Origin: Pseudomonadota bacterium | GTDB lineage: Bacteria; Pseudomonadota; Gammaproteobacteria; Xanthomonadales; Rhodanobacteraceae | Reading direction: 5' to 3' | Length of the DNA: 47,188 nt | NCBI GenBank assembly: GCA_021793575.1 | Contig: JAJYSM010000022.1 | Coordinates: 1 to 47,188, forward strand | Shown here: positions 3,801 through 47,188 of the stretch, piece by piece | Layout of the letters: each line of letters opens with the position of its first letter | How positions within the stretch are numbered: position 1 is the stretch's first letter | Translations under genes and position numbers: made by a program | The notes under the pieces: generated by a model | Seen by the model: the letters and a program-made list of their open reading frames with translations, nothing else | Database searches by the model: none | What the model was told of the DNA's origin: nothing

Positions 3801-5147
3801 ATGAGTGATCTGTGGCGGCGCTGCCTTGAGCGTCTCGAGGGCGATCTGAGCGCCGAGGACCTGCACACCTGGCTGATGCCGCTGCAGGCGCGCGACGGCC
3901 CGGCCGGGCTGCAGCTGTTCGCACCCAATTCCTACACGCTCGATACCGTGCGCGAACGCTATCTGGTGCAGATCGAGACCGTGTTGCAGCAACTGCAAGG
4001 GGGCAAGCCCTGGCCTGTGCGGCTGAAGGTAGGCTCCAATTCGGCGCGCACGGCGAAACCGGGCCCCGCCGCTCAGCCGGCTGTAGCGGGGCGCAGCCGT
4101 GCTGCAGAAGCGCCCAGCCAGACTTACCACCATAATCTCGATCCGCACTACACCTTCGAGACCTTCGTCGAGGGCAAATCCAACCAGCTCGGCAAGGCGG
4201 CCGCCATGCAGGTGGCGACCAACCCGGGCCGCGCCTACAACCCCTTGTTGCTGTACGGTGGCACCGGGCTGGGCAAGACCCATCTGATGCATGCCGCCGG
4301 CAACCTGATGCGCGAGCACAATCCTGACTTCAAGGTGCTGTACCTGCGCTCCGAGCAGTTCGTCGGCTCGATGATCGAGGCGTTGCGCGCCAAGAGCATG
4401 GATGAGTTCAAACGGCGCTTCCGCTCGGTCGATGCGTTGCTGATCGATGACATCCAGTTCTTCGCCGGCAAGGACACCACGCAGGAGGAGTTCTTCCATA
4501 CCTTCAATGCGCTGTTCGAATCCAAGCAGCAGATCATCCTCACCTGCGATCGTTACCCGAAGGAAGTCGACAAGCTTGAGCCGCGCCTGAAGTCCCGGCT
4601 GGGCTGGGGGCTGAGCGTGGCGATCGAACCCCCCGATTTCGAGACGCGCGCGGCGATCCTGCTGGCCAAGGCGCACGAAAAAGGGGTGGCGGTGGACGAG
4701 AGCGTGGCGATGCTGCTGGCCAAGCGCATCCGTTCCAACGTGCGCGATCTCGAAGGCGCCCTGAACACACTGGCGGCGCGCGCCAACTTCTACGGCAAGC
4801 CGATCACCGCCGATTTCGCCGAAGAGACCCTGCGCGATCTGCTGGCCACGCACGCCCAGGCCATCACCGTGCCGAACATCCAGAAGATCACCGCCGAATA
4901 CTTCAACGTGCGCCTGCAGGACCTGCTGTCGAAGCGACGCGTGCGTTCGCTGGCGCGGCCGCGGCAGATCGCGATGGCTTTGTCGAAGGAACTGACCGGG
5001 CACAGCCTGCCGGAAATCGGTGAAGCTTTCGGCGGACGCGACCATACCACCGTCATGCATGCCTGCAAGACCATCCGAAAGTTTGTCGAAACCGATCCAC
5101 GCATGCGTCAGGACTGGGAACAGTTGATCCGTACGCTGACGGGCTGA
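3801..5147 (+). CDS. dnaA: Chromosomal replication initiator protein DnaA
   Basis: DnaA binds 9-bp boxes in oriC, oligomerises with ATP and melts the origin. The 448-residue protein shows all four domains. Domain I begins [21 protein letters not shown] short linker at about 80-110 follows. The AAA+ domain III has Walker [10 protein letters not shown] at 153-161 and Walker [10 protein letters not shown] near 215. Domain IV carries the DNA-binding signature [12 protein letters not shown] at about 411-422. The ATG at 3801 is preceded by only a weak ribosome-binding site, which is common for dnaA. DnaA boxes occur on both sides of the gene. Confidence 0.98.
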
Positions 5148-5180
5148 TGGCCGCAGTGCACGGGTAACTTGGTAAATTAG

Positions 5181-5400
5181 GGATAACCCGCGGTGCAAGC
5201 TGTGGATAATGGGTGGATGGATGCGCGCATGCAGTTATCCACAAAGCATCCACCGTCAAACGACCAGCAAGGGCACAGCCTAATATCCACCCAAAATATT
5301 GATTTATATACAAAAAAATGGATGTTTGAGTTATCCACCGAGCCAACAACAGCTACTAAACTTCTTTTAAAGACTAAACAGCAGGACTAGGGGAAGCAAA
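5181..5400. other. Replication origin oriC (dnaA-dnaN interval)
   Basis: The 256 bases between dnaA and dnaN hold the main origin signals. There are exact DnaA boxes at 5201-5209 (reverse) and 5235-5243 (TTATCCACA, forward), a one-mismatch box at 5331-5339 (TTATCCACC) and weaker relatives near 5181, 5246 and 5284. A strikingly AT-rich stretch at 5293-5319 (for example GATTTATATACAAAAAAATG) stands out from the GC-rich surroundings and is the likely unwinding element. A second AT-rich patch at 5355-5385 precedes dnaN. The location matches the usual xanthomonad origin, but function is inferred from sequence. Confidence 0.85.
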
Positions 5401-5403
5401 GCC

Positions 5404-6504
5404 ATGCAATTCAGCATTCAACGAGAAGCGCTGCTCAAGCCACTGCAGCAGGTCGTTGGCGTGGTTGAACGCCGCCAGACACTGCCAGTACTTGCCAACC
5501 TGCTGGTGAAAGTGGCCGAGGGCAGACTTTCACTGACCGGCACCGACCTGGAAGTGGAGATGATGGCCACCGCTCAGGCCGAGAAGCTGGTTGACGGTGA
5601 AATCACCATTCCGGCGCGCAAGCTGTTCGATATCGTGCGAGCACTTCCGGACGGTGCACGCATCGAACTGAAACTCAGCGGCGATCGCGTTGCCCTGAGT
5701 GCGGGTCGCAGCCGCTTTACGCTGACCACGCTGCCCGCCAGTGAATTTCCTACCGTCGATGAAATCGAGTTGATGGAAAAAGTCAGCTTGCCGGAGGAAG
5801 TGCTGCGTGACCTGATGGAACGTACGTCTTTTGCCATGGCCAACCAGGATGTCCGCTACTACCTCAACGGGATGCTGCTGGATTTGCAGGAGCACACCCT
5901 GCGCTGCGTGGCAACCGACGGTCATCGCCTGGCGATGAAGGAAACCCAGCTGCAGAATTCCGTGACCACTCGCCGGCAGATCATCATTCCGCGCAAGGGC
6001 GTCAACGAACTGGTGGGCTTGCTCGAAAGCGGCGAGGGTCAAGTGGAGCTGGAATTTGGTCGCAACCATCTGCGCGTGCGCCGTGGCGACGTGGTGTTCA
6101 CTTCCAAGCTGATCGACGGGCGCTTTCCGGACTATGAGGCCGTGATCCCGTTGGGCGCGGACAAGACCGCCACGCTGGATCGTGACGTGCTGCGCGGCGC
6201 GCTACAGCGTGCCGCCATCCTGTCCAACGAGAAGTACCGCGGAGTTCGTCTTGAGCTTTCCCCCGGCAAACTGCGCATCGTGGCGCACAATCCGGAACAG
6301 GAGGAAGCGGTGGAGGAGGTGGAAGCGGACACTCACGTCTCCGACCTCGCGGTAGGCTTCAACGTGGGCTATCTGCTGGAAGCGCTGGCCGCCTTGCGCG
6401 GCGACAAGGCGCGACTCAGCCTGCGCGACGCGCAATCCAGCTGCCTGGTGCAGGAAAACGACAACGAGCACTCGCGCCACGTGATCATGCCGCTGCGTCT
6501 CTGA
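5404..6504 (+). CDS. dnaN: DNA polymerase III beta sliding clamp
   Basis: The beta clamp encircles DNA and tethers polymerase III and many repair factors. The 366-residue protein starts MQFSIQREALLKPLQQVVGV and ends RHVIMPLRL, both typical. Length is that of the family (about 366), with three repeated clamp domains, and conserved segments such as RFPDYEAVIP and ATDGHRLAM are visible. A purine-rich ribosome-binding site (AGGGGAAGC) precedes the ATG. It follows oriC and precedes recF in the conserved dnaA-dnaN-recF-gyrB order. Confidence 0.98.
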   Translation: MQFSIQREALLKPLQQVVGVVERRQTLPVLANLLVKVAEGRLSLTGTDLEVEMMATAQAEKLVDGEITIPARKLFDIVRALPDGARIELKLSGDRVALSAGRSRFTLTTLPASEFPTVDEIELMEKVSLPEEVLRDLMERTSFAMANQDVRYYLNGMLLDLQEHTLRCVATDGHRLAMKETQLQNSVTTRRQIIIPRKGVNELVGLLESGEGQVELEFGRNHLRVRRGDVVFTSKLIDGRFPDYEAVIPLGADKTATLDRDVLRGALQRAAILSNEKYRGVRLELSPGKLRIVAHNPEQEEAVEEVEADTHVSDLAVGFNVGYLLEALAALRGDKARLSLRDAQSSCLVQENDNEHSRHVIMPLRL

Positions 6505-6544
6505 CACCTGGCCGATGCCGGCTTTTCTGCTACGCGATGCCATT

Positions 6545-6579
6545 CAACGCCGGAGTGCCGCTTGCGCCCTCCGGCGTTG
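6545..6579 (+). terminator. Hairpin between dnaN and recF
   Basis: Eleven-base perfect arms (CAACGCCGGAG at 6545-6555 and CTCCGGCGTTG at 6569-6579) enclose a 13-base loop. There is no long T-run after it, only TCGTTT, so it may be a weak terminator or attenuator that reduces read-through into recF rather than a full stop. Confidence 0.55.
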
Positions 6580-6600
6580 TCGTTTGACGGCAGGCACGGC

Positions 6601-7683
6601 ATGAGACTTGCTCAACTGCGTATCCGGGGCTTGCGCTGCCTCGGTGAGGTTGAGCTTGTTCTGAAACCGGGCATCAACGTGCTGGTCGGTGCCAACGGCG
6701 CCGGCAAAACCACCGTACTGGAAGCCGTCTTTCTGCTGTCTCGGGGGCGCTCCTTCCGCACTGGTGCAAAGGAAGCACTGGTGCAACGCGGCGCCAGCGG
6801 ATACTCGTTGTTTGCCGAAATGCTCCACTCCGATCAGCGTAGCTGTCGGCTGGGGCTCGGCCGCGAGGGCAGCCGCTGGGAGGCGAGAGTCGATGGCAGC
6901 AGCGCAACGCTCGGCGCGTTGGTGCAGGAGTGCGCCGTCGTCTGTTTTGAACCCGGCACGCACGCGCTGATTGCGGGTGCAGCCGAGGAGCGCCGGCGCT
7001 ACCTCGACTGGGGTGTGTTTCACGTGGAACACGATTTTCTTGCCCATTGGCGCCGCTATCAACGCGCCCTCAAGCAGCGCAACAGCCTGCTGCGTGCCAC
7101 CAGCGCACCGCTCAACGACACGTTGTTTGCTCCCTGGGAAGCGGAGTTGGCGCAAGCGGGCCAACAACTCCATCAGCAACGCGAAGCCTACCTGGCGCGA
7201 CTTCACCCCAGGCTGGTCGCCAGTGCGGGGTTTCTTTTGCCGGAGCTCGGGCCGCTGACTTTGCACTATCGCCGCGGTTGGTCAGTGGATCAGACTCTCG
7301 CCGAGCAGCTGCGGGAACAACGCGGCAGGGATCTTGCGCGAGGACACACAACCTTGGGCGCGCATCGGGCGGACTGGTCGATTGCCTTCGAGCAGGCACC
7401 ATTGCGTGAACACCTCTCGCGCGGCCAGGAAAAGCTGACAGCGTTGGCTTGTGTGCTGGCACAGGCGCAGTTGTATGCCGAATGCCGGGGCGAGTGGCCC
7501 ATCGTCTGCCTTGACGACTTGGCGTCGGAGCTCGATCTGCCCCACCAGTCTGCCGTGGTGGCGCAGCTGCATGCGGCGGGTGCGCAGATATTGCTTACCG
7601 GGACCGAACTGCCGCAAGCCCTGCAGTCGCTGGCGGCGCAGGTGTTTCACGTGGAACAAGGCCAGCTGACGCGCCTGCTATAA
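6601..7683 (+). CDS. recF: DNA replication and repair protein RecF
   Basis: RecF is an SMC-like ATPase that loads RecA at single-strand gaps with RecO and RecR. The start at 6601 gives MRLAQLRIRGLRCLGEVELV; an upstream in-frame ATG at 6562 would add 13 unconserved residues. The 360-residue protein has Walker A GANGAGKTT at 30-38, the ABC-like signature SRGQEKLT near 274 and Walker B CLDDLASELD near 303. Two stretches encoding VFHVE (residues 139-143 and 348-352) coincide exactly with two parS palindromes. Confidence 0.96.
   Translation: MRLAQLRIRGLRCLGEVELVLKPGINVLVGANGAGKTTVLEAVFLLSRGRSFRTGAKEALVQRGASGYSLFAEMLHSDQRSCRLGLGREGSRWEARVDGSSATLGALVQECAVVCFEPGTHALIAGAAEERRRYLDWGVFHVEHDFLAHWRRYQRALKQRNSLLRATSAPLNDTLFAPWEAELAQAGQQLHQQREAYLARLHPRLVASAGFLLPELGPLTLHYRRGWSVDQTLAEQLREQRGRDLARGHTTLGAHRADWSIAFEQAPLREHLSRGQEKLTALACVLAQAQLYAECRGEWPIVCLDDLASELDLPHQSAVVAQLHAAGAQILLTGTELPQALQSLAAQVFHVEQGQLTRLL
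7016..7031. promoter_or_regulatory. parS centromere site 1 (within recF)
   Basis: TGTTTCACGTGGAACA is a 16-bp near-palindrome matching the bacterial parS consensus TGTTNCACGTGNAACA. ParB binds such sites to organise and segregate the origin region. It lies about 1.7 kb from the oriC boxes, as expected for a chromosomal centromere. Confidence 0.9.
7643..7658. promoter_or_regulatory. parS centromere site 2 (within recF)
   Basis: A second copy of TGTTTCACGTGGAACA, identical in all 16 bases to the copy at 7016, lies near the 3' end of recF. The spacing is 627 bases. Two clustered sites support a genuine ParB loading region rather than a chance coding match. Confidence 0.9.
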
Positions 7684-7714
7684 TCAACGATTGCATCATT
7701 CCACGATGGCATAA

Positions 7715-10198
<2,484 letters not shown>

Positions 10199-38405: not shown

Positions 38406-39335
38406 CTACGCGTTGCCGGCCGTGCTGCGGCGCCTGCGCGCGGGCTTGGCAGGCTTGCCGGGCAGCAGCGAGGTGAGCTGCTGGTAGCGCTCAAACAGAA
38501 ACGCCACGCGCTCGGCGTCGCTGCCCAGCCGGGGCGGTTTGCGGCCGGCCCGTTTCTCGGCCGCGAGATAAGCCGCATCCACCGCCCGATCCAGTGCCTG
38601 ATGCGCCTTCACCAGTACCGGCGGCATGCTCAGCGGATCGTACAGGTCGGCCAGCGTGGATTCGGGAAAGGTGGCGCGCGCATCCAGCACGGCCTGCGCG
38701 GCGCGTTCGATGGCGACGGCATGCCTGTGCCCTTCTACCAAACTGATGCGCTGATCCTCACGAGTCCGTTCGCCCTGAGCGTAGGCGGCGCCAGCGGACG
38801 GAGTCGAAGGGTGCGCCGGCGACACTTCGACGTCGCCGTCCTGCGGACAGCTACGCTCAGTGCGAACGGACGAGGGAATGTCAGCCAGCTCGGGCCACGG
38901 GAAGTTGTTGTAGACGATGTCCTTGGAATAGTGCGGAAATCACTCTTCAGGCGGCCCCAGGTGTAGCGCACCCAGGCCATGTGCATGGCTGAACTCATCA
39001 CGCCAAGATGGAAAAGTTCGGCATCGGGTACGACGAACACCAGGTTATTGGCGATGACTTCGGGCGACATGAAGCCGATCGGAATGTACTGGCGTCTCTC
39101 TGACGAGACACCCGGCACCAGCAGATATCCCGTCTTGGGTTGTGCGATCTGGCAAAACCGCGTCGGCGTTGCGGAAAATTTGCGTGTCGCGGCTGCCTTG
39201 CTCGCCAGCCTGAACCGTCGAGTCTGCTCGATGCGCGCCATCACGGATGGCATCGCGCGTAGCGCATCGGGAGGAACATCAATCAACCATAGACACCAGC
39301 GCCAAGCGCCGTTCAGAAATTCATCCGAGCCAACA
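38406..39335 (-). pseudogene. Remnant of an MmeI-type class I DNA methyltransferase (3' part, frameshifted)
   Basis: The leftward strand encodes the last third of a large type IIL/MmeI-like modification-restriction protein. Reading from about 39335, recognisable family segments are YVGSDEFLNG, WCLWLIDVPPDALRAMPSVM, RLASKAAATRKFSATPTRF, LLVPGVSSERRQYIPIGF and AWVRYTWGRLKSDFR. Near 38936 two extra bases break the frame. The expected continuation, YSKDIVYNNFPWPELADIP, resumes in the next frame. A REP pair (38764-38871) is then inserted in frame, and the normal C terminus follows (ARATFPESTLADLYDPLSMP to the stop at 38406). The N-terminal two thirds, with the nuclease and SAM-binding parts, are absent. 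The gene is dead here. Upstream, 39336-39481 shows nothing recognisable. Confidence 0.82.
38764..38871. repeat. Inverted pair of REP-like repeats inside the methyltransferase remnant
   Basis: The left unit (38764-38811) starts GTCCGTTCGCCCTGAGCGTA and the right unit (38823-38871) is its imperfect reverse complement, ending TACGCTCAGTGCGAACGGAC. The units are separated by 11 bases. The pair reads through the methyltransferase frame without adding a stop. Head-to-head REP pairs are the mobile unit in RAYT-associated systems. Confidence 0.75.
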
Positions 39336-39481
39336 TAGGGATGTCCTTCTCGGCCAAGACCACACTTGGGCGCGTCGACTTGCGATGGGTCTCGAATCAG
39401 CCGCCGGCCTGGATAGCCGGGGCCGACTGCTCGGCACCTTTTACATTCTGTCGACCAAGCCTCGCTTCGACGACAGGCAAA

Positions 39482-39913
39482 TCAGCGTTTCCCGAGCTTC
39501 AAACCGAAGTCCTCAGGGCGCAGCAACAGATCATTCAGTGTGTATCGGTCAAGCGTTGCAACAAATGCGTCAAGCGCCTCGCTCAACACTCCGCGCAGTC
39601 GGCAGGAGGGAGTGATCTGACAGCGGTTATCGGCGGTGAAGCACTCCGCCATGGCGAAATCCGGTTCGGTCACGCGCATGACGGTGCCGAGGCGGATATT
39701 ATTCGGACTCACTGCCAGCGTGAATCCCCCCGTGCGCCCGCGGACGGCTTTCAGGTATCCCGCACGCGTCAGCACAGTGACCACCTTCATCAGATGATTG
39801 CGAGAGATCTTGTACACCACAGCTGTCTCTTCGATGGTGATCAGACGTTCGCGCTGTGCCGCAGCGTACATCAGCACTCGCAACGCATAGTCCGAAAAGT
39901 GAGTTAATCGCAT
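39482..39913 (-). CDS. nsrR: Rrf2-family nitric-oxide-sensing repressor NsrR
   Basis: NsrR is an Fe-S repressor that releases DNA when nitric oxide attacks its cluster. The 143-residue protein begins MRLTHFSDYALRVLMYAA. It has the winged-helix segment ISRNHLMKVVTVLTRAGYLK, three cluster cysteines (C91, C98, C104, in ECFTADNRCQITPSCRLRG) and the Asp8 position used as the fourth ligand in other NsrR proteins. The C91-C98 spacing is longer by two than in E. coli. The start ATG 39913 excludes an upstream extension. It is divergent from a hemerythrin gene, and a consensus-like NsrR operator lies downstream at 40678. Confidence 0.93.
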   Translation of the reverse strand: MRLTHFSDYALRVLMYAAAQRERLITIEETAVVYKISRNHLMKVVTVLTRAGYLKAVRGRTGGFTLAVSPNNIRLGTVMRVTEPDFAMAECFTADNRCQITPSCRLRGVLSEALDAFVATLDRYTLNDLLLRPEDFGLKLGKR

Positions 39914-39974
39914 GGTTTTCCGAAGGATTGCGTTGGCGCGGTATGGTATGACACAGGGAGGCAAGCCAAATGAT

Positions 39975-40001
39975 GTGCGCATTATACCTGTTTATGCGCA
40001 C
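39975..40001 (-). promoter_or_regulatory. nsrR promoter with an inverted repeat around the -10 box
   Basis: On the leftward strand a perfect TATAAT (39986-39981) sits between arms GTGCGCAT (39975-39982) and ATGCGCAC (39994-40001), with an 11-base spacer. The -35 box is weak. A palindrome enclosing the -10 suggests regulation of nsrR, but it does not match the NsrR consensus, so the factor is unknown. Confidence 0.5.
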
Positions 40002-40066
40002 CCGACTTCAGCCCGAGCGCTGCATCGATTAAGAGATTCAGCCGTGCGGATGCCAGCCGGTACCCT

Positions 40067-40486
40067 ATGTCCGCCGATATGAATCCGATGTTCCAGTTCA
40101 CCGATCTCACGACGCAGCACGCACAGATGTTGAATCTCTTGCAGGATGAGCGTTTGGCGCTGCTGGATGGCGAGCTGTCCCGCGCACGCGCCTTGCTGGC
40201 GCAGCTGCATGAGTTGCAAGAGACGCACATCGAGGATGAGGAAAGCGGGTTGATCCCCTATCTGCCCGAGTGGGCGCGCTGGCATGCCAGGGTATATCTG
40301 GCAGAACACCGCAAATTGTCCGCGATGCTTGGCGAGCTGCGCCTGGCACTCGAGCCGCTGCCCGCGCGGGTGCCGGATGGTACGACGCGCCTGGCACTGC
40401 TGGATATCCACGCGCCGTTCCGGCACGTGCTCGAACACCACTTCGAGCGTGAGGAAAAAGGGCTTTTCGTCGAAGTTCAAAGGTAA
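40067..40486 (+). CDS. Hemerythrin-like (HHE) protein
   Basis: A 139-residue four-helix protein with the iron ligands expected for a di-iron hemerythrin fold: H18 (TTQHAQML), H54 and E58 (ETHIEDEES), H81 (EHRKLS), H115 (DIHAPF) and H124/H125 with E129 (LEHHFEREEKGLF). Proteins of this group bind oxygen or nitric oxide, or supply iron to damaged Fe-S clusters (as proposed for RIC/YtfE, to which it is only loosely similar). It is divergent from nsrR. The start could also be ATG 40079. Confidence 0.85.
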   Translation: MSADMNPMFQFTDLTTQHAQMLNLLQDERLALLDGELSRARALLAQLHELQETHIEDEESGLIPYLPEWARWHARVYLAEHRKLSAMLGELRLALEPLPARVPDGTTRLALLDIHAPFRHVLEHHFEREEKGLFVEVQR

Positions 40487-40677
40487 CGCCACGGGTGGGA
40501 ACCGCTACATCCATGAACCCGACTGGCGTTCCGGCCATGCGCTCGGGGTGGTGCTTCGATCCAATCGGCTTGAATGCTTTGCGCTGGTGATCCGGTACGG
40601 GGATCGATGCCGATGCGCCAGATCAATCTTGCCGCGCTGACCCGGTTCCCGCCATGTTGCGCGTCAGTTTGCCATTT

Positions 40678-40700
40678 AAGAGGCATTGACAATGCCTCTT
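40678..40700 (+). promoter_or_regulatory. NsrR operator overlapping a consensus -35 box
   Basis: A perfect palindrome: arm AAGAGGCATT is mirrored by AATGCCTCTT around GAC. Against the published 11-1-11 NsrR consensus (AAGATGCATTT and its mirror) 18 to 19 of 22 positions agree. TTGACA, an exact -35, lies at 40686-40691, and TACGCT at 40710-40715 could be the -10 with an 18-base spacer. NsrR binding here would block the downstream genes. In the same 342-base gap, 40732-40756 forms a 9-base-arm hairpin (GCTTCCATC/GATGGAAGC) in the untranslated leader. Confidence 0.85.
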
Positions 40701-40828
40701 ATGAGAGTCTACGCTTGCTTCACGCAGCCGAGCTTCCATCCCGCAACGATGGAAGCCGCCAAAAGAAAGGCCATCGCCAGGCTGCCCGGTCGCATGTCGA
40801 CTGCGGCGATCGCTCCCACCCCATCCGG

Positions 40829-41098
40829 ATGAACGTCATGCCCCATTCCGCTGTATCTCCCACGTCTCCCGAGGTCGACGTGCGGCCCCTCGTGCCGGCG
40901 CAACGCCATGCCAAGATCTTCCAGCTGGTCGACGCCTTGCTTCCGGGCACCGCTTTCGTCCTGGTCAATGACCACGACCCTAAGCCGCTGTACTACCAAC
41001 TCGAGGCGGAATATCCGCAGCAGTTCGCATGGAACTATCTGGAAAAGGGTCCCGAGATCTGGCGCGTCGAGATCCGCAAACTCGCGCAGGCAGCCTGA
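40829..41098 (+). CDS. DUF2249 protein, single domain
   Basis: An 89-residue protein. The DUF2249 region runs from VDVRPLVPAQRHAKIFQLVD to the end and includes VNDHDPKPLYYQLEAEYPQ and WNYLEKGPEIWRVEI. DUF2249 proteins are often found beside denitrification, hemerythrin and NsrR genes; their biochemical function is not established. It is the first gene after the NsrR operator. The ATG at 40838 is an alternative start. Confidence 0.85.
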   Translation: MNVMPHSAVSPTSPEVDVRPLVPAQRHAKIFQLVDALLPGTAFVLVNDHDPKPLYYQLEAEYPQQFAWNYLEKGPEIWRVEIRKLAQAA

Positions 41099-41122
41099 AG
41101 TCGTACCGTCAAGTCAAAGTAG

Positions 41123-41147
41123 GTGCCGGGCCGCAGGGGCCCGGCAC
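41123..41147 (+). other. Intercistronic stem-loop
   Basis: Ten-base arms GTGCCGGGCC (41123-41132) and GGCCCGGCAC (41138-41147) with a 5-base loop lie between the DUF2249 and membrane-protein genes. There is no T-run, so it is probably a processing or stability element that sets different levels for the two messages. Confidence 0.5.
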
Positions 41148-41169
41148 AAGCATCCCGGGAAGTCGTCTC

Positions 41170-42525
41170 GTGGCCGGTGTTTCGCTCTCTCGCTGGACAA
41201 TGTCGTATTTTGCTGCCGCGCTGGTCGCGCTGCTGGCCGCAGAGAGTCTGATGGCTGCGGGATGGGGTTTTCCAAACGCGCCCATCGAGGCGCCAGCGAC
41301 ACTGCTGCTTGTCCATCTGGTGGTTCTGGGTTGGCTAAGTCTGCTGCTGTGTGGCGCACTGTTCCAATTCGTACCGGTACTCATCGCCAGGCCGCTCCAT
41401 AGCGCGACACTGCCCTTGCCCGCGCTGGTCCTGCTTCTCGGCGGGCTGGCGGCGCTGCTGACGGGTTTCCTCGGTTTAGATGGGACGGTCGCAGCGACGT
41501 TGCCGTTCTTCCCCGTCGCGAGCATCCTGCTGGCGGCCGGCTTCAGCCTCGTGCTGTGGAATCTCGGCCGCACGCTCTGGGCCGCACGACCGCTGGGATT
41601 GCCGGCGCAGTTTGTCGCCGTGGGTTTGCTTGGCCTGACGGCCACCGTGGCCATCGGCATCACCTTCGCACTGGTGCTGGCGGGCGACGCGACGACCCCC
41701 GTAGCGCTTCGCATCTTTGCTTACGGCCTGCCGGTCCACATCGTCGCCGGACTAGGCGGCTGGCTTACTTTGACCGCCATGGGCGTCAGCTACCGGTTGC
41801 TGGCGATGTTCATGCTGGCACCAGAGCTGGATCGTCCGAGCACCCGCGCGGTTCTGCGGTTCGGTGCATGGGCACTGGGCGTGACGGTTCTCGGCGGCAC
41901 GACCATGATTCTTGTGAATCATGGCACCGCTCCGGTTTTCGTTGCCGCCGGGGTATTCGGCTTGCTGACCGTGATCCTGTACGCGCGTGACATCGCGCAT
42001 TTGTACCGGGCGCGCAGACGGCGAGTGATCGAACTCAACAGCCGGATGGCGGCGGCGGCGGTGGGATCGCTGGTACTCGCCGCGCTGCTGATAGTGGTGC
42101 TTGGGAGCATGGGCGCACTGGCACGCCATGCCGGCGCGGTGGTGTTCCTGGTTGCCTTCGGCTGGCTGTCGGGGCTGGGTCTGGCCAAGCTCTACAAGAT
42201 CGTCCCGTTTCTTACCTGGCTCGAATGCTACGGCCCGGTGCTGGGCAAGGTATCCACCCCAAGGGTGCAGGATCTGGTTGCCGAGCAACACGCGCGCAAG
42301 TGGTTCGGGCTGTATTTCATCGCCGCCTGGGCGGCGACAGCGGCGCTGTTCCTGGACAGCGCATGGGCATTCCGGGTAGCGGCAGCGATGCTGCTGGTCG
42401 GAACTGCGGGCATCGTCCTGCAGTTGGTGCGAGCGCGCCGTCTGGACGACGTACCCGCTTCGGCACGCTTCCCGGCGGGAAGCATGCGACCACCGCTGGT
42501 TCTTTCCTTGACGCGCTCGCACTGA
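41170..42525 (+). CDS. Multi-helix membrane protein resembling heme-copper oxidase subunit I
   Basis: A 451-residue protein with about twelve helices. Histidines fall inside helices where heme ligands would sit: H49 (LLVHLVVLGWLSLL), H191 (LPVHIVAGLGGWLT) and one near residue 345 (ALARHAGAVVFL). The helix pattern recalls NorB/CcoN, but the full set of six metal histidines is not evident. Similar genes accompany NsrR and DUF2249 genes. A nitric-oxide reductase or sensor role is a hypothesis. The start is GTG 41170 (GGGAAG 7 bases upstream); ATG 41200 is an alternative. Confidence 0.75.
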   Translation: MAGVSLSRWTMSYFAAALVALLAAESLMAAGWGFPNAPIEAPATLLLVHLVVLGWLSLLLCGALFQFVPVLIARPLHSATLPLPALVLLLGGLAALLTGFLGLDGTVAATLPFFPVASILLAAGFSLVLWNLGRTLWAARPLGLPAQFVAVGLLGLTATVAIGITFALVLAGDATTPVALRIFAYGLPVHIVAGLGGWLTLTAMGVSYRLLAMFMLAPELDRPSTRAVLRFGAWALGVTVLGGTTMILVNHGTAPVFVAAGVFGLLTVILYARDIAHLYRARRRRVIELNSRMAAAAVGSLVLAALLIVVLGSMGALARHAGAVVFLVAFGWLSGLGLAKLYKIVPFLTWLECYGPVLGKVSTPRVQDLVAEQHARKWFGLYFIAAWAATAALFLDSAWAFRVAAAMLLVGTAGIVLQLVRARRLDDVPASARFPAGSMRPPLVLSLTRSH

Positions 42526-42542
42526 TCGGCAGGAGACTGGTG

Positions 42543-43073
42543 ATGACGACGTTTGTGGATCTCGATGTGCGCCCCATCCTGCGCGATGGCGGCGAGCCTT
42601 TCGAACAGATCATGGCCACGGTAGCGGAATTGCGGCCGGATCAGGGCTTGCGATTGTTCGCGACCTTCAAGCCGACGCCGCTGCTGCACATGCTGGGTTC
42701 CAAAGGTTACACGCATGACGTGCGGGAGCTCGGCCATGACGACTGGGAGGTTCTGTTCACCCCCACCGGGCGGACACCGGCGTCCGCCGCTGCGGTTGCC
42801 AGCACGCCCGATGACGATGACGTCTGGCCGCCGCCCACGATCTCCATCGACAACCGCGATCTCGATCCGCCCGAGCCGATGGTGCGCACGCTGGCGGCGC
42901 TGGAATCCCTCAAGGAAGGCGAGGTGTTGTCGGCGCTGCTTTGTCGCGAACCGATGTTCCTGCTCCCGGAACTGGTCGAGCGTGGCCATCGCTGGCGCGG
43001 CGGCTTTGACGCCGACGGCACGACCTACCGCCTTGCAGTGCGCATCGGCAGTGAGCCGGGGAGCGGCGCATGA
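42543..43073 (+). CDS. Double DUF2249 protein
   Basis: A 176-residue protein with two DUF2249 repeats. The first spans about 1-75 (FVDLDVRPILRDGGEPFEQI, FKPTPLLHMLGSKGYTH). The second spans about 95-170 (IDNRDLDPPEPMVRTLAALE, LCREPMFLLPELVERGHRWR). An acidic proline-rich linker joins them. AGGAG lies 7 bases before ATG 42543. Its stop overlaps the next start by ATGA, so the genes are coupled. Confidence 0.85.
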   Translation: MTTFVDLDVRPILRDGGEPFEQIMATVAELRPDQGLRLFATFKPTPLLHMLGSKGYTHDVRELGHDDWEVLFTPTGRTPASAAAVASTPDDDDVWPPPTISIDNRDLDPPEPMVRTLAALESLKEGEVLSALLCREPMFLLPELVERGHRWRGGFDADGTTYRLAVRIGSEPGSGA

Positions 43074-43405
43074 ACAGCAGCGAACGAGAATCCCCGATCG
43101 AACGGGCCAGGGAGGCACTTCGCACCGTGATCGATCCCGAGCTCGGCTACAACATCGTCGACCTCGGGCTCATCTATGAAGTCAGCATCGATGACGCCGG
43201 CATGGCGCACGTACTCATGACCACGACCACGCGCGGCTGCCCGGCGACGAGTTACCTGCAGGAGGGCGCTCGCGAGAGCGTCGCGCAGCTGCCCGGCATC
43301 GTGGGCGTCGAGGTAGTCATGACCCACGATCCGGAATGGTCGCCGCAAAAGATGACTCCCGAGGCCAGGCGGTACCTCGGCATCGAGGAGGAGAGCATCC
43401 AATGA
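43070..43405 (+). CDS. MIP18/SufT-type Fe-S assembly factor (DUF59)
   Basis: A 111-residue protein of the MIP18 (DUF59) family. It begins with the helix ERAREALRTVIDPELGYNIV and carries DLGLIYEVSIDDAG. The conserved cysteine lies in TRGCPATSYLQEGA. Family members (SufT, PaaD, MIP18) help mature Fe-S proteins, and SufT in Staphylococcus supports lipoyl synthase. It overlaps both neighbours by four bases, and a lipoyl synthase is encoded 1.4 kb downstream. Confidence 0.9.
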   Translation: MNSSERESPIERAREALRTVIDPELGYNIVDLGLIYEVSIDDAGMAHVLMTTTTRGCPATSYLQEGARESVAQLPGIVGVEVVMTHDPEWSPQKMTPEARRYLGIEEESIQ

Positions 43406-43638
43406 TCGACCACACGTCAACGGAACGCGAGGGGCGTTCTCACGCCTTGAAGCCGTCGCCCGAAAGCCTCACCGGCATCCTGCTGGCCAGTCTGGAAGCG
43501 CTGGCGGTGGTCGGGCAGGTCGAGGCGGCTTGCCGCTTTGCCGGGCGTGCATGCGTCGCATTGCGACACAGTGATCCGAAAGGCGAGCACCGGTTCAACG
43601 CGTTGCTGCATCGACTCGCGTCGCGCGTGCCCTGGTGA
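43402..43638 (+). CDS. Small protein of unknown function
   Basis: A 78-residue product (MIDHTSTEREGRSHALKPSP...), mostly helical, with two cysteines at about 43 and 50 in EAACRFAGRACVALRH. I recognise no domain. Its ATGA overlap with the MIP18 gene and its position in the cluster support it being real and co-translated. A metal or partner-binding role would be a guess. Confidence 0.7.
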   Translation: MIDHTSTEREGRSHALKPSPESLTGILLASLEALAVVGQVEAACRFAGRACVALRHSDPKGEHRFNALLHRLASRVPW

Positions 43639-43667
43639 ACGCGAATGAACCACGATCGGGAAACCAC

Positions 43668-43977
43668 ATGATGTCCGATATTCCGCACAGCTTGCCCGGG
43701 GGTCTCGAAGCCTATGGCCGTTCCATCGACTTCACCGCGGACAATCTGCCGTTGAAGCTGCAGCGGGCTCACACGACCAAGCCCGGAACATGGGGCCTGA
43801 TCCATGTGCTCGAGGGCCGCATCCACTTCGAACTGGAGCCCCCCCCTGGCAGGTGAGGTCTTCGCCGAAAGGGGCGACACGATCGTGATCGAACCGCCGG
43901 CGCCCCACCACGTCCGTTTCGTGGAGCTCGGGCGCTTCTACGTTGAATTTTATCGTCTTGCATGCGCGACCTTTTGA
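43668..43977 (+). pseudogene. DUF1971 cupin (TehB N-terminal type), frameshifted at a C8 run
   Basis: The first frame reads MMSDIPHSLPGGLEAYGRSI and GTWGLIHVLEGRIHFELEPP, then stops at 43856. The rest of the cupin is intact in another frame: GEVFAERGDTIVIEPPAPHH, then VRFVELGRFYVEFYRLACAT, ending at 43977. The break coincides with eight consecutive C bases at 43839-43846. Seven would restore one continuous protein of about 102 residues. DUF1971 cupins are linked to tellurite and reactive-species resistance. The break may be a sequencing slip, a real mutation or a phase-variable tract. GGGAAA precedes ATG 43668. Confidence 0.85.
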
Positions 43978-44123
43978 ACACGAGGGAAACCATCGTCCGT
44001 GATCGCCCCTGTGCGGCGTGCACCGTGCCGCCGACGAGCCCGGCGAAGTTGAACGAGGCAAGCGCGGCATCTGCGCCAGCAATCTGCTTCCGGATGCGTG
44101 CAGCGTAACGGGAGAATCAAGTC

Positions 44124-44447
44124 ATGACTCACGTCGTCACCGATAACTGCATCAAGTGCAAATACACCGACTGCGTCGAGGTCTGTCCGGTCGACTGCTT
44201 TCACGAAGGCCCCAACTTCCTGGTGATCGACCCGGTTGAATGCATCGACTGCACGCTCTGCGTCGCCGAATGTCCGGCCTATGCCATTTTCGCCGAGGAC
44301 GATGTGCCCGGGGGGCAGGAGCATTTCCTGCAAATCAATGCCGAACTGGCGCCGAAGTGGCCGGTGATCGACGGCAGAATCGACGCCCTGCCGGATGCCG
44401 GGCAGTGGAACGGCGTGGCCGACAAGCTGCCGTATCTGGAGCGTTGA
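44124..44447 (+). CDS. fdxA: Seven-iron ferredoxin FdxA
   Basis: A 107-residue ferredoxin. Cysteines C9, C17 and C50 fit a [3Fe-4S] cluster, and C21, C40, C43 and C46 fit a [4Fe-4S] cluster. C12 and C25 are extra, as in Azotobacter ferredoxin I, whose spacing is the same. Such low-potential ferredoxins donate electrons in stress metabolism and could reduce the radical-SAM cluster of lipoyl synthase encoded next door. The 146 bases before it show no gene; GGGAGA precedes the ATG. Confidence 0.95.
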
Positions 44448-44448
44448 C

Positions 44449-44772
44449 ATGGATATCGGTCAGCGATGGCAGGCCCCATCCGATCCGGTCACCGGACTGC
44501 GCGTGAGCGCATCCGAGACCGTGTGCGAAGTAGGCTGGGACGAGCTGCCGCTGACTTGCCCGCCGCACGACAGCAGCCTCTGGAACGGCCATCCGCGCAT
44601 CTATCTGCCGATCCACCAGACCGGCCGCGAGCGTTGCCCGTATTGCGGCACGCTTTACCTCCTGCGCGAGGTGCAGCCGGACGCCGCTACGTTGCACTTC
44701 GCCGATGTGGGGATCGAGCAGTGCTACGCCATCGCGCACGAGCGCCGGGTTCGCGAGCTCGCGCAGAAATGA
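44449..44772 (+). CDS. CHCC zinc-finger protein (zf-CHCC)
   Basis: A 107-residue protein. The zinc site is C37, H48, C63 and C66 ([20 protein letters not shown], then RCPYCGTLY), the pattern of the zf-CHCC family that includes complex I accessory subunit NDUFS6. It directly follows fdxA (one base between stop and start) and overlaps the lipA start by ATGA. Function in bacteria is not defined; a role in Fe-S or respiratory assembly is possible. Confidence 0.85.
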
Positions 44773-45797
44773 CCCAATCTCTCAATTATCTGCCTGCAAG
44801 GTTATCGCCCATGGCTCCGCCTGTTCATTCCAGCACGCCACGTGACGGCAGCAAGTACGTCACCCCGGAAGGCGTCCGTGCGGTCAAGGGAGGGTTGCGC
44901 CCGCATGCCGACAGCGCGGCCCCCGATGTCGATCGCAAGCCGCCATGGTTGCGCGTGCGCCTGCCCGCCGGCGAGCGTTATGAAGCTGTGCATGACATCG
45001 TCCGCGGTTATGGTCTGCACACGGTCTGTGCGGAATCCAAGTGTCCCAACATCGCCGAATGCTGGGGCCGCGGCACCGCGACCCTGATGTTGATGGGCGA
45101 GGTCTGCACTCGCGCCTGCCGGTTCTGTTCCGTGAGCACCGGCAATCCGCACGGCTGGCTGGATCCGCTCGAGCCGCCGCACGTGGCCGAGGCAGTGGCG
45201 CTGATGGGGCTGAAGTACGTGGTGTTGACGTCGGTCGATCGCGATGATCTGGCCGATGGCGGTGCGGCGCATTACGCGGCCTGCATCCGCGCCATCCATG
45301 CGCGCACGCCGGCGGTCGCGGTGGAGGCGCTGACACCGGATTTCGCCGGCAACCTCGCTGCGGTGGCAAGGGTGCTGGACGCCGGGCTGGTCACCTATGC
45401 GCAGAATCTGGAAACCGTCGAGCGTCTGACCCGGCAGGTGCGCGATCCGCGCGCCGGTTATGCGCAGACATTGCGCGTGCTCGAGTTCGCCAAGCAGCAC
45501 GCGCCCGACACGCTGACCAAGTCCAGCCTGATGCTGGGTTTGGGCGAGACCGATGCCGAAATCGGACAAACCCTTGATGACTTGCGCGCGGCGCAGGTCG
45601 ATATTGTGACTCTCGGGCAGTACCTGCGCCCGTCGCCGAATCATTTGTCGGTGGCACGCTTCGTGACGCCCGAACAATTCCACCACTATCGCGACCTGGC
45701 GCTGGCGAAAGGCTTTGTCGAAGCGGTCGCCGGGCCGCTGGTACGTTCGAGTTATCGCGCCGAGCGCGTGCTGGAGCGCAATAATGTGGGGCTGTAA
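44769..45797 (+). CDS. lipA: Lipoyl synthase
   Basis: LipA inserts two sulfurs into octanoyl groups on lipoyl domains, sacrificing an auxiliary Fe-S cluster. The 342-residue protein has the auxiliary cysteines C87, C92 and C98 ([12 protein letters not shown]), the radical-SAM triad C113, C117 and C120 (CTRACRFC) and the C-terminal RSSY at 326-329. The central segment [20 protein letters not shown] differs from the usual proteobacterial FNHNLETVPRLYR..RPGADY, suggesting a different LipA branch. The start overlaps the zf-CHCC stop; ATG 44811 is an alternative. No lipB is adjacent. Placement in an NsrR-led cluster is unusual. Confidence 0.93.
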
Positions 45798-45863
45798 ACC
45801 GAAGGAGCCATCCGGTTTCGGACGTCGCCACGCGCTGCTCGCGTGCCATGGAGAAGATCCATC

Positions 45864-46088
45864 ATGTCGCTGAGTAATCAAGTGGGCCCACACCTGCGTC
45901 ACTCGGTGATCCCGCAGGTACTTCGGACGTGTCAACCGTCTCCGCCGAGGATCTCCACGAGTGTGGTGGATGACGCATGCGATGCACGTGAGCGCCTGCT
46001 CGACGACACGCTGGCGGAGAGTTTCCCGGCCAGCGATCCATTGCCCTGGACGCTCGGGCGGCGCCGCACAACGCCGCCAGAACGCTGA
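45864..46088 (+). CDS. Small protein with a DDTLAESFPASDP motif
   Basis: A 74-residue product whose C-terminal part RLLDDTLAESFPASDPLPWT matches a short motif (D-E/D-T-L-A-E-S-F-P-A-S-D-P) recurrent in small uncharacterised proteobacterial proteins. GGAGAAG lies 7 bases before ATG 45864. The function is unknown. Confidence 0.75.
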   Translation: MSLSNQVGPHLRHSVIPQVLRTCQPSPPRISTSVVDDACDARERLLDDTLAESFPASDPLPWTLGRRRTTPPER

Positions 46089-46111
46089 TTTCTTCACCAA
46101 GGAGTAATGTC

Positions 46112-46456
46112 ATGGAACATCCGGTCTATCCCCCGCTCACCCCGGAACTCGCACGCAAGCGCCGCGAGCTGGCGCCGGCCACGCTGGATGCTTTCAAGGC
46201 CTTCAGCGCCCAGGTCTTTGCCGACGGCGCGCTGCCGGGCAAGACCAAGCAGTTGATCGCGGTAGCTGTGGCGCACGTCACGCAATGCCCCTATTGCATC
46301 CGTGGCCACACCGAAGCCGCGCTCAAACACGGCGCCAGCGAGCAGGAGATCATGGAGGCCATCTGGGTTGCTACCGAGATGCGCGCGGGTGGCGCCTACG
46401 CGCATGCGATGCTGGCGCTCGACACCATGCACCAGGTACACGCGGCATCACGCTGA
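46112..46456 (+). CDS. Carboxymuconolactone decarboxylase/AhpD-family protein
   Basis: A 114-residue AhpD-like protein with the redox pair C59-x2-C62 and H66 (TQCPYCIRGH), as in alkylhydroperoxidase. In AhpD the CxxC passes electrons from a lipoylated protein to a peroxiredoxin, so its presence next to lipoyl synthase is functionally suggestive. AAGGAG precedes ATG 46112. Confidence 0.9.
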   Translation: MEHPVYPPLTPELARKRRELAPATLDAFKAFSAQVFADGALPGKTKQLIAVAVAHVTQCPYCIRGHTEAALKHGASEQEIMEAIWVATEMRAGGAYAHAMLALDTMHQVHAASR

Positions 46457-46474
46457 CATCCGGAAGGTACACAC

Positions 46475-47131
46475 GTGAACACGCGTTATGCGGGCATCTC
46501 CGCCAGTATTCTCGACGCGATCGGCGACACCCCGCTGCTCGAGATCGAGGGCATCTCCGCCAAGCTGGAATTTCTCAATCCCTCCGGTTCGATCAAGGCG
46601 CGCATCGCCCACTACATGATCGAACGCGCCGAGCGCGAGGGTTTGCTCAAGCCTGGCGATACCATCGTCGAGGCCACCAGCGGCAACACTGGAAATGCCC
46701 TGGCTATGGTCGCCGCGGTCAAGGGCTACCGCATGCTGGTGGTGATGCCGGAAGGCCTGTCCAGTGAACGCGTGGCGATTTCGCGCGCCTACGGCGCCGA
46801 AGTGCTGTTCTGCGGGCGATTCCACGTCAACGATGCGCTGGCCAAGGCGCATGAACTCGGCCGGCAGCCGGGCTATTTCTGTCCGCGCCAGTTCGAGTCG
46901 GAATGGAATGTCGAAGAAAACCGCCTGGTGCTGGGCCCCGAGATCCTGGCGCAAATGCCGGCCGGCCGCTTGCCCGACGCGCTGGTGGCCGGCGTCGGCA
47001 CCGGCGGCACCCTGATCGGCGTGGGCCAGGCGTTGCGCGCTGTCAATCCCGCCGTGCGCCTGTTGTTACGTCCGTCGAAGTCCGAGGGCCGATGGCCTCT
47101 GACGCCCCGAGTTCTTTCAGGGCGTTCATGA
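46475..47131 (+). pseudogene. PLP-dependent cysteine synthase, C-terminus replaced
   Basis: The start is GTG 46475, with GGAAGG 7 bases upstream. The protein follows the CysK/CysM family: DAIGDTPLLEI, PLP-lysine motif PSGSIKARIA, phosphate-binding TSGNTGNALAMVAAVKGYRM and GVGTGGTLIGVGQALRAVNP. Homology ends near AVRL (about base 47062). The last residues (LLRPSKSEGRWPLTPRVLSG) are unrelated, and the frame closes at 47131 after 218 residues, against about 300 normally. A rearrangement or insertion lies at this junction. The PLP part is present, but the missing C-terminal third makes activity unlikely. Confidence 0.8.
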
Positions 47132-47188
47132 GAACCGCTCCCAGCGCAGCCTGGGACGAAGTGCCAACAAGATAGGCCGGTGCTCCTT
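47043..47188 (-). other. Unidentified coding-like segment entering from the right edge
   Basis: From about 47065 the sequence no longer belongs to the cysteine synthase. On the leftward strand an open frame runs from the window edge to a stop at 47043 and reads PAYLVGTSSQAALGAVLMNA followed by LKELGASEAIGPRTSTDVTT. It has coding-like composition but no family I recognise. It may be the end of a mobile element that interrupted the gene. Confidence 0.35.

Follow-up and report, generated by a model that had tools for sequence, protein, structure and literature searches.

The window analysed here is the whole of contig C3 (47188 nt; JAJYSM010000022.1) from genome GCA_021793575.1, taken to be a Rhodanobacter, which comprises 3.2 Mb in 123 contigs. 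Towards its right end, a gene for an Rrf2-family regulator, nsrR, stands back to back with a long rightward run of genes that contains lipA2, a second lipoyl synthase gene. Our preferred explanation, to which we assign a probability of roughly 0.6, is that the run rightward from 40829 is a nitric oxide (NO) response operon, repressed by NsrR, one of whose products is a second lipoyl synthase, LipA2, gained by horizontal transfer. The features of the locus are as follows.

39482..39913, - strand: nsrR, Rrf2-family regulator (Pfam Rrf2, 112.4 bits)
40067..40486, + strand: hemerythrin-like protein, between nsrR and the operator (Pfam Hemerythrin, 37 bits over a cut-off of 25.3)
40678..40700, no strand: predicted NsrR-type operator AAGAGGCATTGACAATGCCTCTT, a 23-bp perfect 11-1-11 palindrome containing TTGACA
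40829..41098, + strand: DUF2249 protein (Pfam DUF2249, 102 bits)
41170..42525, + strand: membrane protein with a NorB/cbb3 subunit I fold (predicted structure)
42543..43073, + strand: DUF2249 protein with a DUF2249/TusA-like second half (Pfam DUF2249, 115 bits, two stretches)
43070..43405, + strand: MIP18/DUF59-type iron-sulphur (Fe-S) assembly protein (Pfam FeS_assembly_P, 69 bits)
43402..43638, + strand: small conserved protein (81-91% identity in four relatives)
43635..43977, + strand: DUF1971 cupin, broken frame (Pfam DUF1971, 41 bits)
44124..44447, + strand: fdxA, 7Fe-type ferredoxin (NCBIfam FdxA model NF045490, 157.8 over 135)
44449..44772, + strand: zf-CHCC protein (Pfam zf-CHCC, 35 over 27)
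44769..45797, + strand: lipA2, second lipoyl synthase (TIGR00510, 379.5 bits over 310.25)
45843..46088, + strand: small protein with an ESFPASDP motif (similar open reading frame, ORF, in the same place in loci L034 and L035)
46112..46456, + strand: CMD/AhpD-core protein with CxxC (Pfam CMD, 82.7 bits; TIGR00778, 72.6 over 27.8)
46475..47064, + strand: cysteine synthase (cysM-like), cut near the contig end (Pfam PALP, 180 bits)

Every gene named in the original prediction was found in the window, as were the ATGA start overlaps it had placed at 43070 (MIP18-like protein), 43402 (small protein) and 44769 (lipA2). Its nsrR carries an Rrf2 domain, and the NsrR-like operator it had seen over a -35 is the perfect palindrome listed above. 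The nsrR ORF is open to 39982, and as the family models begin at 39913 the gene probably starts there. The regulator holds three cysteines in ECFTADNRCQITPSC, which presumably bind an NO-sensitive Fe-S cluster. A scan of 39300-47188 detected no full sigma-70 promoter, hence the -35 within the operator lacks a good -10.

The operator matches 16 of the 20 fixed positions of what we take to be the E. coli-type NsrR consensus. It is also the sole match in the 3.2 Mb genome to AANATGYAT-N5-ATRCATNTT at two mismatches or fewer (reversed-pattern control, 0); sites at this tolerance numbered 17 in genome G443 and nine in G447, with reversed controls of 1 and 2, respectively. Furthermore, it fits gATGyAT-N5-ATrCATc (Rodionov et al. 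2005) with two mismatches, and a 23-bp target site of Streptomyces coelicolor NsrR is likewise laid out 11-1-11 (PMC4432287). Counting the source genome, seven genomes carry an NsrR-type site before the DUF2249 gene, six of them at 16-17 of 20 (the window and L157-L161) and L187 at 15. When one 12 kb locus (L161) was crudely shuffled 200 times, the best score reached 15 in 15 of the shuffles and 16 in none, so the L187 site taken alone is within chance. Weaker sites, at 14 of 20, lie next to nsrR in two relatives. NsrR control of the run is backed by this conserved predicted operator.

The canonical lipA of the same genome (LipA1) lies on contig C26 behind a lipB-like gene, a neighbour name assigned by eye, as were pyrG-like and eno-like below. 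The original prediction had called for a check for a second lipA with lipB elsewhere in the genome, which the C26 pair provides, and its own counter-case, that the window copy is the only housekeeping lipA, does not hold in this genome. The window LipA2 is ~50% identical to LipA1, from which it differs in 29 type-specific alignment columns, and in a FastTree phylogeny of 168 rows (41 LipA1 and 127 LipA2-lineage) the two types split at a local support of 100. Same-genome loci under a second identifier, the near copies L175/L176, and L250-L266 were dropped from this tree. The motifs CX4CX5C, CX3CX2C and RSSY are present in the window LipA2 and in 160 of 160 lineage rows (some genomes occur twice). 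Relatives by sequence with solved structures are PDB entries 4u0o (260.8 bits) and 8ugo (309.4 bits), which we take to be lipoyl synthase 2 of Thermosynechococcus and the human mitochondrial enzyme. Judged by equivalog score and motifs, LipA2 is a predicted lipoyl synthase, and it serves as the sole LipA in many genomes. Among the 35 Rhodanobacter genomes compared besides the source genome, 21 encode LipA2, and in one of these (G022) LipA1 is missing. LipA2 appears to have been acquired by horizontal transfer. Its ratio of non-synonymous to synonymous substitution rates (dN/dS), 0.08-0.13 to the four closest relatives, indicates strong purifying selection; across the ten genes measured the maximum was 0.43, with FdxA at 0.06-0.10 and the small protein at 43402 at 0.13-0.35.

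The run is kept in close relatives, which counters a lack of conservation, one of the outcomes named in the original prediction as fatal to it. The module marked by the membrane protein occurs in three of the 35 same-genus genomes, always beside LipA2, and in one further close metagenome-assembled genome (MAG; L159). In part or rearranged, it was also detected in Mizugakiibacter (L161), an uncultured member of the Rhodanobacteraceae (L162), DS4.bin36 (L187), a Natronospirales MAG (L194) and REEB218 (L207). A fixed "kit" for rebuilding lipoylation and Fe-S enzymes, as first proposed, is not supported by these gene contents: cysM, the cupin and the NsrR part are variably present, and in other genomes LipA2 is often the sole, housekeeping LipA.

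Within the NO response operon as we picture it, NO would attack the Fe-S cluster of the regulator, which would then leave the operator over the -35. Derepression would yield the DUF2249 proteins and the NorB-fold membrane protein as NO-handling or NO-sensing proteins, and the same transcription would supply the MIP18-like Fe-S maturation factor, FdxA and LipA2, which would replace NO-damaged lipoyl groups and Fe-S enzymes while NO persists. Induction by NO, a single transcript, FdxA as electron donor, the MIP18-like protein as cluster donor and repair of lipoylation are each conjectural parts of this scheme, and a second LipA under NsrR control together with FdxA and a DUF59 protein would fit a response that rebuilds lipoylation. 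If the explanation is right, control of LipA2 by an NO-sensing repressor would directly answer how cells that produce NO during respiration keep their pyruvate and 2-oxoglutarate dehydrogenases (PDH and OGDH) lipoylated, and lipoylation would be added to the NsrR response.

The operon could instead end before lipA2, leaving lipA2, the CMD gene and cysM as a separate sulfur/lipoyl unit downstream. Other Rhodanobacter do carry lipA2-CMD-cysM without the module, many of them near pyrG-like and eno-like genes. We consider this unlikely, however, given that the gene order fdxA-zf-CHCC-lipA2 is common to the window, L157-L162, L168 and L187, and that zf-CHCC and lipA2 overlap by four bases in the window; in L157-L160 lipA2 begins where zf-CHCC ends.

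Linkage to NO genes was counted as NorB, NorC, NnrS, NirK, NsrR, the membrane protein or DUF2249 within 7.5 kb of lipA, using score thresholds chosen in this analysis and a marker set that overlaps the module genes of the window itself. Such markers occurred at 26 of 84 loci of a LipA2 subclade (among them the near copies L174-L176), compared with 0 of 45 for LipA2-lineage loci outside the subclade and 0 of 21 for LipA1 loci, hence proximity to NO genes is much commoner for lipA2 of the subclade than for control lipA genes. In genomes that also encode LipA1 the subclade count was 21 of 35, and where LipA2 is the sole copy or its status is unknown it was 5 of 49. NirK was not found within this distance of any lipA locus.

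The arrangements are varied. Genes resembling norCB are followed by fdxA and then lipA2 in L165, L171 and L181, and diverge from lipA2 in L186, an Oxalobacteraceae MAG; the norCB label was given on the strength of similarity, a COX1 domain and a neighbouring cytochrome c, curated NorB models having matched none of these. In L194 the DUF2249, membrane protein and MIP18 genes diverge from lipA2. In L174 qnorB stands directly before lipA2, and elsewhere it lies nearby, separated from lipA2 by genes of haem-oxygenase-like (Pfam, L163) and PAS-GGDEF-EAL (Pfam, L164 homologue) type. Only in L163 and L174 does Pfam NorB_cytochrome_c-like support the qNorB label, and weak NorB matches (~100 bits) in other Rhodanobacter loci were scored as qNorB on that ground. 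One or both of the intervening genes were seen in several Rhodanobacter (L163, L164, L173 and others).

L186 carries an NsrR-type site scoring 16 of 20, with no mismatches, over a TATAAT ~100 bases before the probable start of lipA2; the best score in 83 control loci was 14. L190, from a second MAG, has a 14-of-20 site with two mismatches ~210 bases before its lipA2 start, and a norC-like gene there is preceded by a site at 17 of 20. We also observed FNR/DNR-type boxes (TTGAT-N4-ATCAA), four in L194 (for example at 1971, before fdxA, and at 7892, ~100 bases before lipA2) and one in L186 (2938, before norC); these may answer to oxygen or NO. Predicted NO control of the second lipoyl synthase is well supported by the genomics, because the operator recurs, LipA2 is a second copy of a separate lineage, its subclade is linked to NO genes and L186 has a site directly before lipA2.

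A number of observations weigh against this explanation. The regulator falls below the cut-offs of both the NsrR model PRK11014 (123 of 182 bits) and the RirA model (124.8 of 193 bits). L194 and L207, with their partial modules, yielded no site scoring at least 15, and the NsrR part is present in only three of the 35 same-genus genomes. In the 400 bases before lipA2 at 83 subclade loci, no site scored above 13 other than those of L186 and L190, and the score in L190 is equalled by two of 43 control loci. Fisher tests of NO linkage count related loci as independent, ignoring kinship, and a tree-aware test of linkage versus co-presence of LipA1 had only three supported pairs to go on. Within the genus, nirK above its family cut-off occurred in 18 of 21 genomes with LipA2 and eight of 14 without, a weak difference (p 0.11), and G009, counted as nirK-negative, holds nirK fragments. 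In the class sample of 368 other Gammaproteobacteria genomes, 41 encode the LipA2 lineage (called at 375 bits or above, next score 303), and the lineage showed no association with norB-like genes (9 of 41 versus 90 of 327, p 0.58) in a search that was itself blunt, as matches at 37-42% could be other haem-copper oxidases. No LipA other than LipA2 was found in 40 of these 41 genomes, counting LipA matches up to E 1e-40. At nearer loci it is the only LipA in 37 of 50 genomes, with LipA1 also in 13; this check covered 50 of 80 named loci, and MAG incompleteness could mask copies.

Sole-copy status, together with a lipB-like gene beside lipA of this lineage at 11 loci and the missing class-wide norB association, would suit LipA2 being an ordinary housekeeping LipA of another lineage that arrived on a denitrification island, its NO neighbours reflecting shared transfer and no role for NO. 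This reading seems to us less probable, though it deserves serious weight. It does not readily account for an operator that recurs before the operon and stands directly before lipA2 in L186, for NO-gene arrangements so varied that the NO label requires seven changes on the LipA tree, or for purifying selection on lipA2 alongside LipA1. In keeping with an NO response, nirK and a qNorB-like gene are found in the source genome on C37 (matches 1.3 kb apart); nosZ was not found there.

Castellaniella, Comamonas badia, Thermomonas, Luteimonas and HdN1 (among the LipA2 loci L182-L228) yielded the LipA2 type alone in the genomes searched, which would fit replacement of LipA1 by LipA2 there. We tentatively suggest, at less than even odds, that the 82-row LipA2 subclade is an NO-specialised lineage that spread among gamma- and betaproteobacteria along with NO reductase and genes under NsrR control, initially serving as an NO-inducible backup beside LipA1 and later, as in Castellaniella and Comamonas badia, as the sole LipA. 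It is very improbable that LipA2 lipoylates one special carrier and is no general backup: its separate lineage and type-specific columns would suit such a role, but the lineage serves as sole LipA elsewhere and no carrier gene was recognised in the run, where no dedicated search was made.

Several of the upstream genes resist simple naming. The hemerythrin-like ORF, overlooked earlier, is present in L034 and absent from L033 and L035. The membrane protein matched no Pfam family up to E 0.1, including COX1 and NnrS, and its predicted fold resembles NO reductase NorB and cbb3 oxidase subunit I overall. His49 and His190 are its only invariant histidines in eight sequences, short of the six histidine ligands that we take to define haem-copper oxidases. 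A 32%-identical paralogue in L060 (G000, C101) lies beside an ORF that appears hemerythrin-like by eye. The double-DUF2249 protein was found in two of 369 class genomes, the source genome counted, and TusA in its second half scored 26.8 bits, slightly below the cut-off of 28.6. The "MIP18/SufT-like" factor of the original prediction has its FeS_assembly_P domain, and it scored below the cut-offs of the SufT models, with 73.2 of 202.6 bits for TIGR03406 and 88.5 of 143.4 for TIGR02945. The cupin frame breaks past a stretch of C residues near 43841-43848. L157, L159 and L160 have an open frame here, and L158 has a stop close to the first codons (remainder not read). The zf-CHCC-like ORF also occurs in L157-L162, L168, L187 and L194.

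Downstream of lipA2, the ORF at 45843..46088, likewise overlooked, belongs to a family (cluster c6) found at nine loci. The protein at 46112..46456 has the AhpD core domain, and its peroxidase role is putative. Homology of cysM to L159, L160 and L163 ends at 47064, near the contig end at 47188; the gene is full-length in L159 and L160, L157 retains a 63-base match and no cysM match was found at the L158 locus. The final 124 bases (47065-47188) are unlike the cysM region of relatives and would represent an insertion or an assembly join at the contig end. Left of nsrR, two overlapping - strand ORFs (38406-39286) hold MmeI-type restriction enzyme pieces (C-terminal and target-recognition domains), probably a decayed gene. 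With dnaA, dnaN and gyrB at 3801-10198, the cluster lies ~30-35 kb from an apparent replication-origin region.

DUF2249, the family at the head of the run, is presumably the same as COG4309, and we know of no link to NO genes for the lipoyl synthases 4u0o and 8ugo, members of the same family as LipA2. NO-derived species are reported to modify and block the lipoic arms of PDH and OGDH, reversibly only in part (PMC9974485), and LipA turnover consumes its auxiliary cluster (PMC13232139). In haloarchaea, induction of DUF2249 genes accompanies denitrification (PMC11218638). Among the open-licence PMC papers retrieved on lipoyl synthase with NsrR, NO or denitrification, no title or abstract opening described a second lipoyl synthase under an NO-sensing repressor, and the main text of a 2023 survey of lipoate assembly contains "Rhodanobacter" and "nitric oxide" 0 times (PMC10332631). 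COG4309 in NsrR regulons was already predicted; a second lipoyl synthase there did not come up in these searches.

Among known systems, the NsrR regulons of beta- and gammaproteobacteria share the operator motif, and their predicted targets include nnrS, norB and COG4309, the last often co-transcribed with norB; the term "lipa" is absent from the main text of that study, whereas here LipA2 follows with fdxA, MIP18 and zf-CHCC (PMC1274295). In M. tuberculosis, depletion of SufT, a DUF59 protein tied to lipoate-dependent metabolism and NO survival, lowered NO survival and indicated an impaired lipoate synthase (PMC9045647), although the window protein falls under the SufT model cut-offs. The membrane protein is 10-14% identical to NorB and cbb3 subunit I, without a Pfam match and with two invariant histidines. 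The canonical LipB-LipA pathway, represented by LipA1 on C26, has the same radical S-adenosylmethionine, auxiliary-cluster and RSSY motifs; LipA2 differs from it in belonging to a separate lineage, ~50% identical, and in lying not beside lipB but behind an NsrR-type operator.

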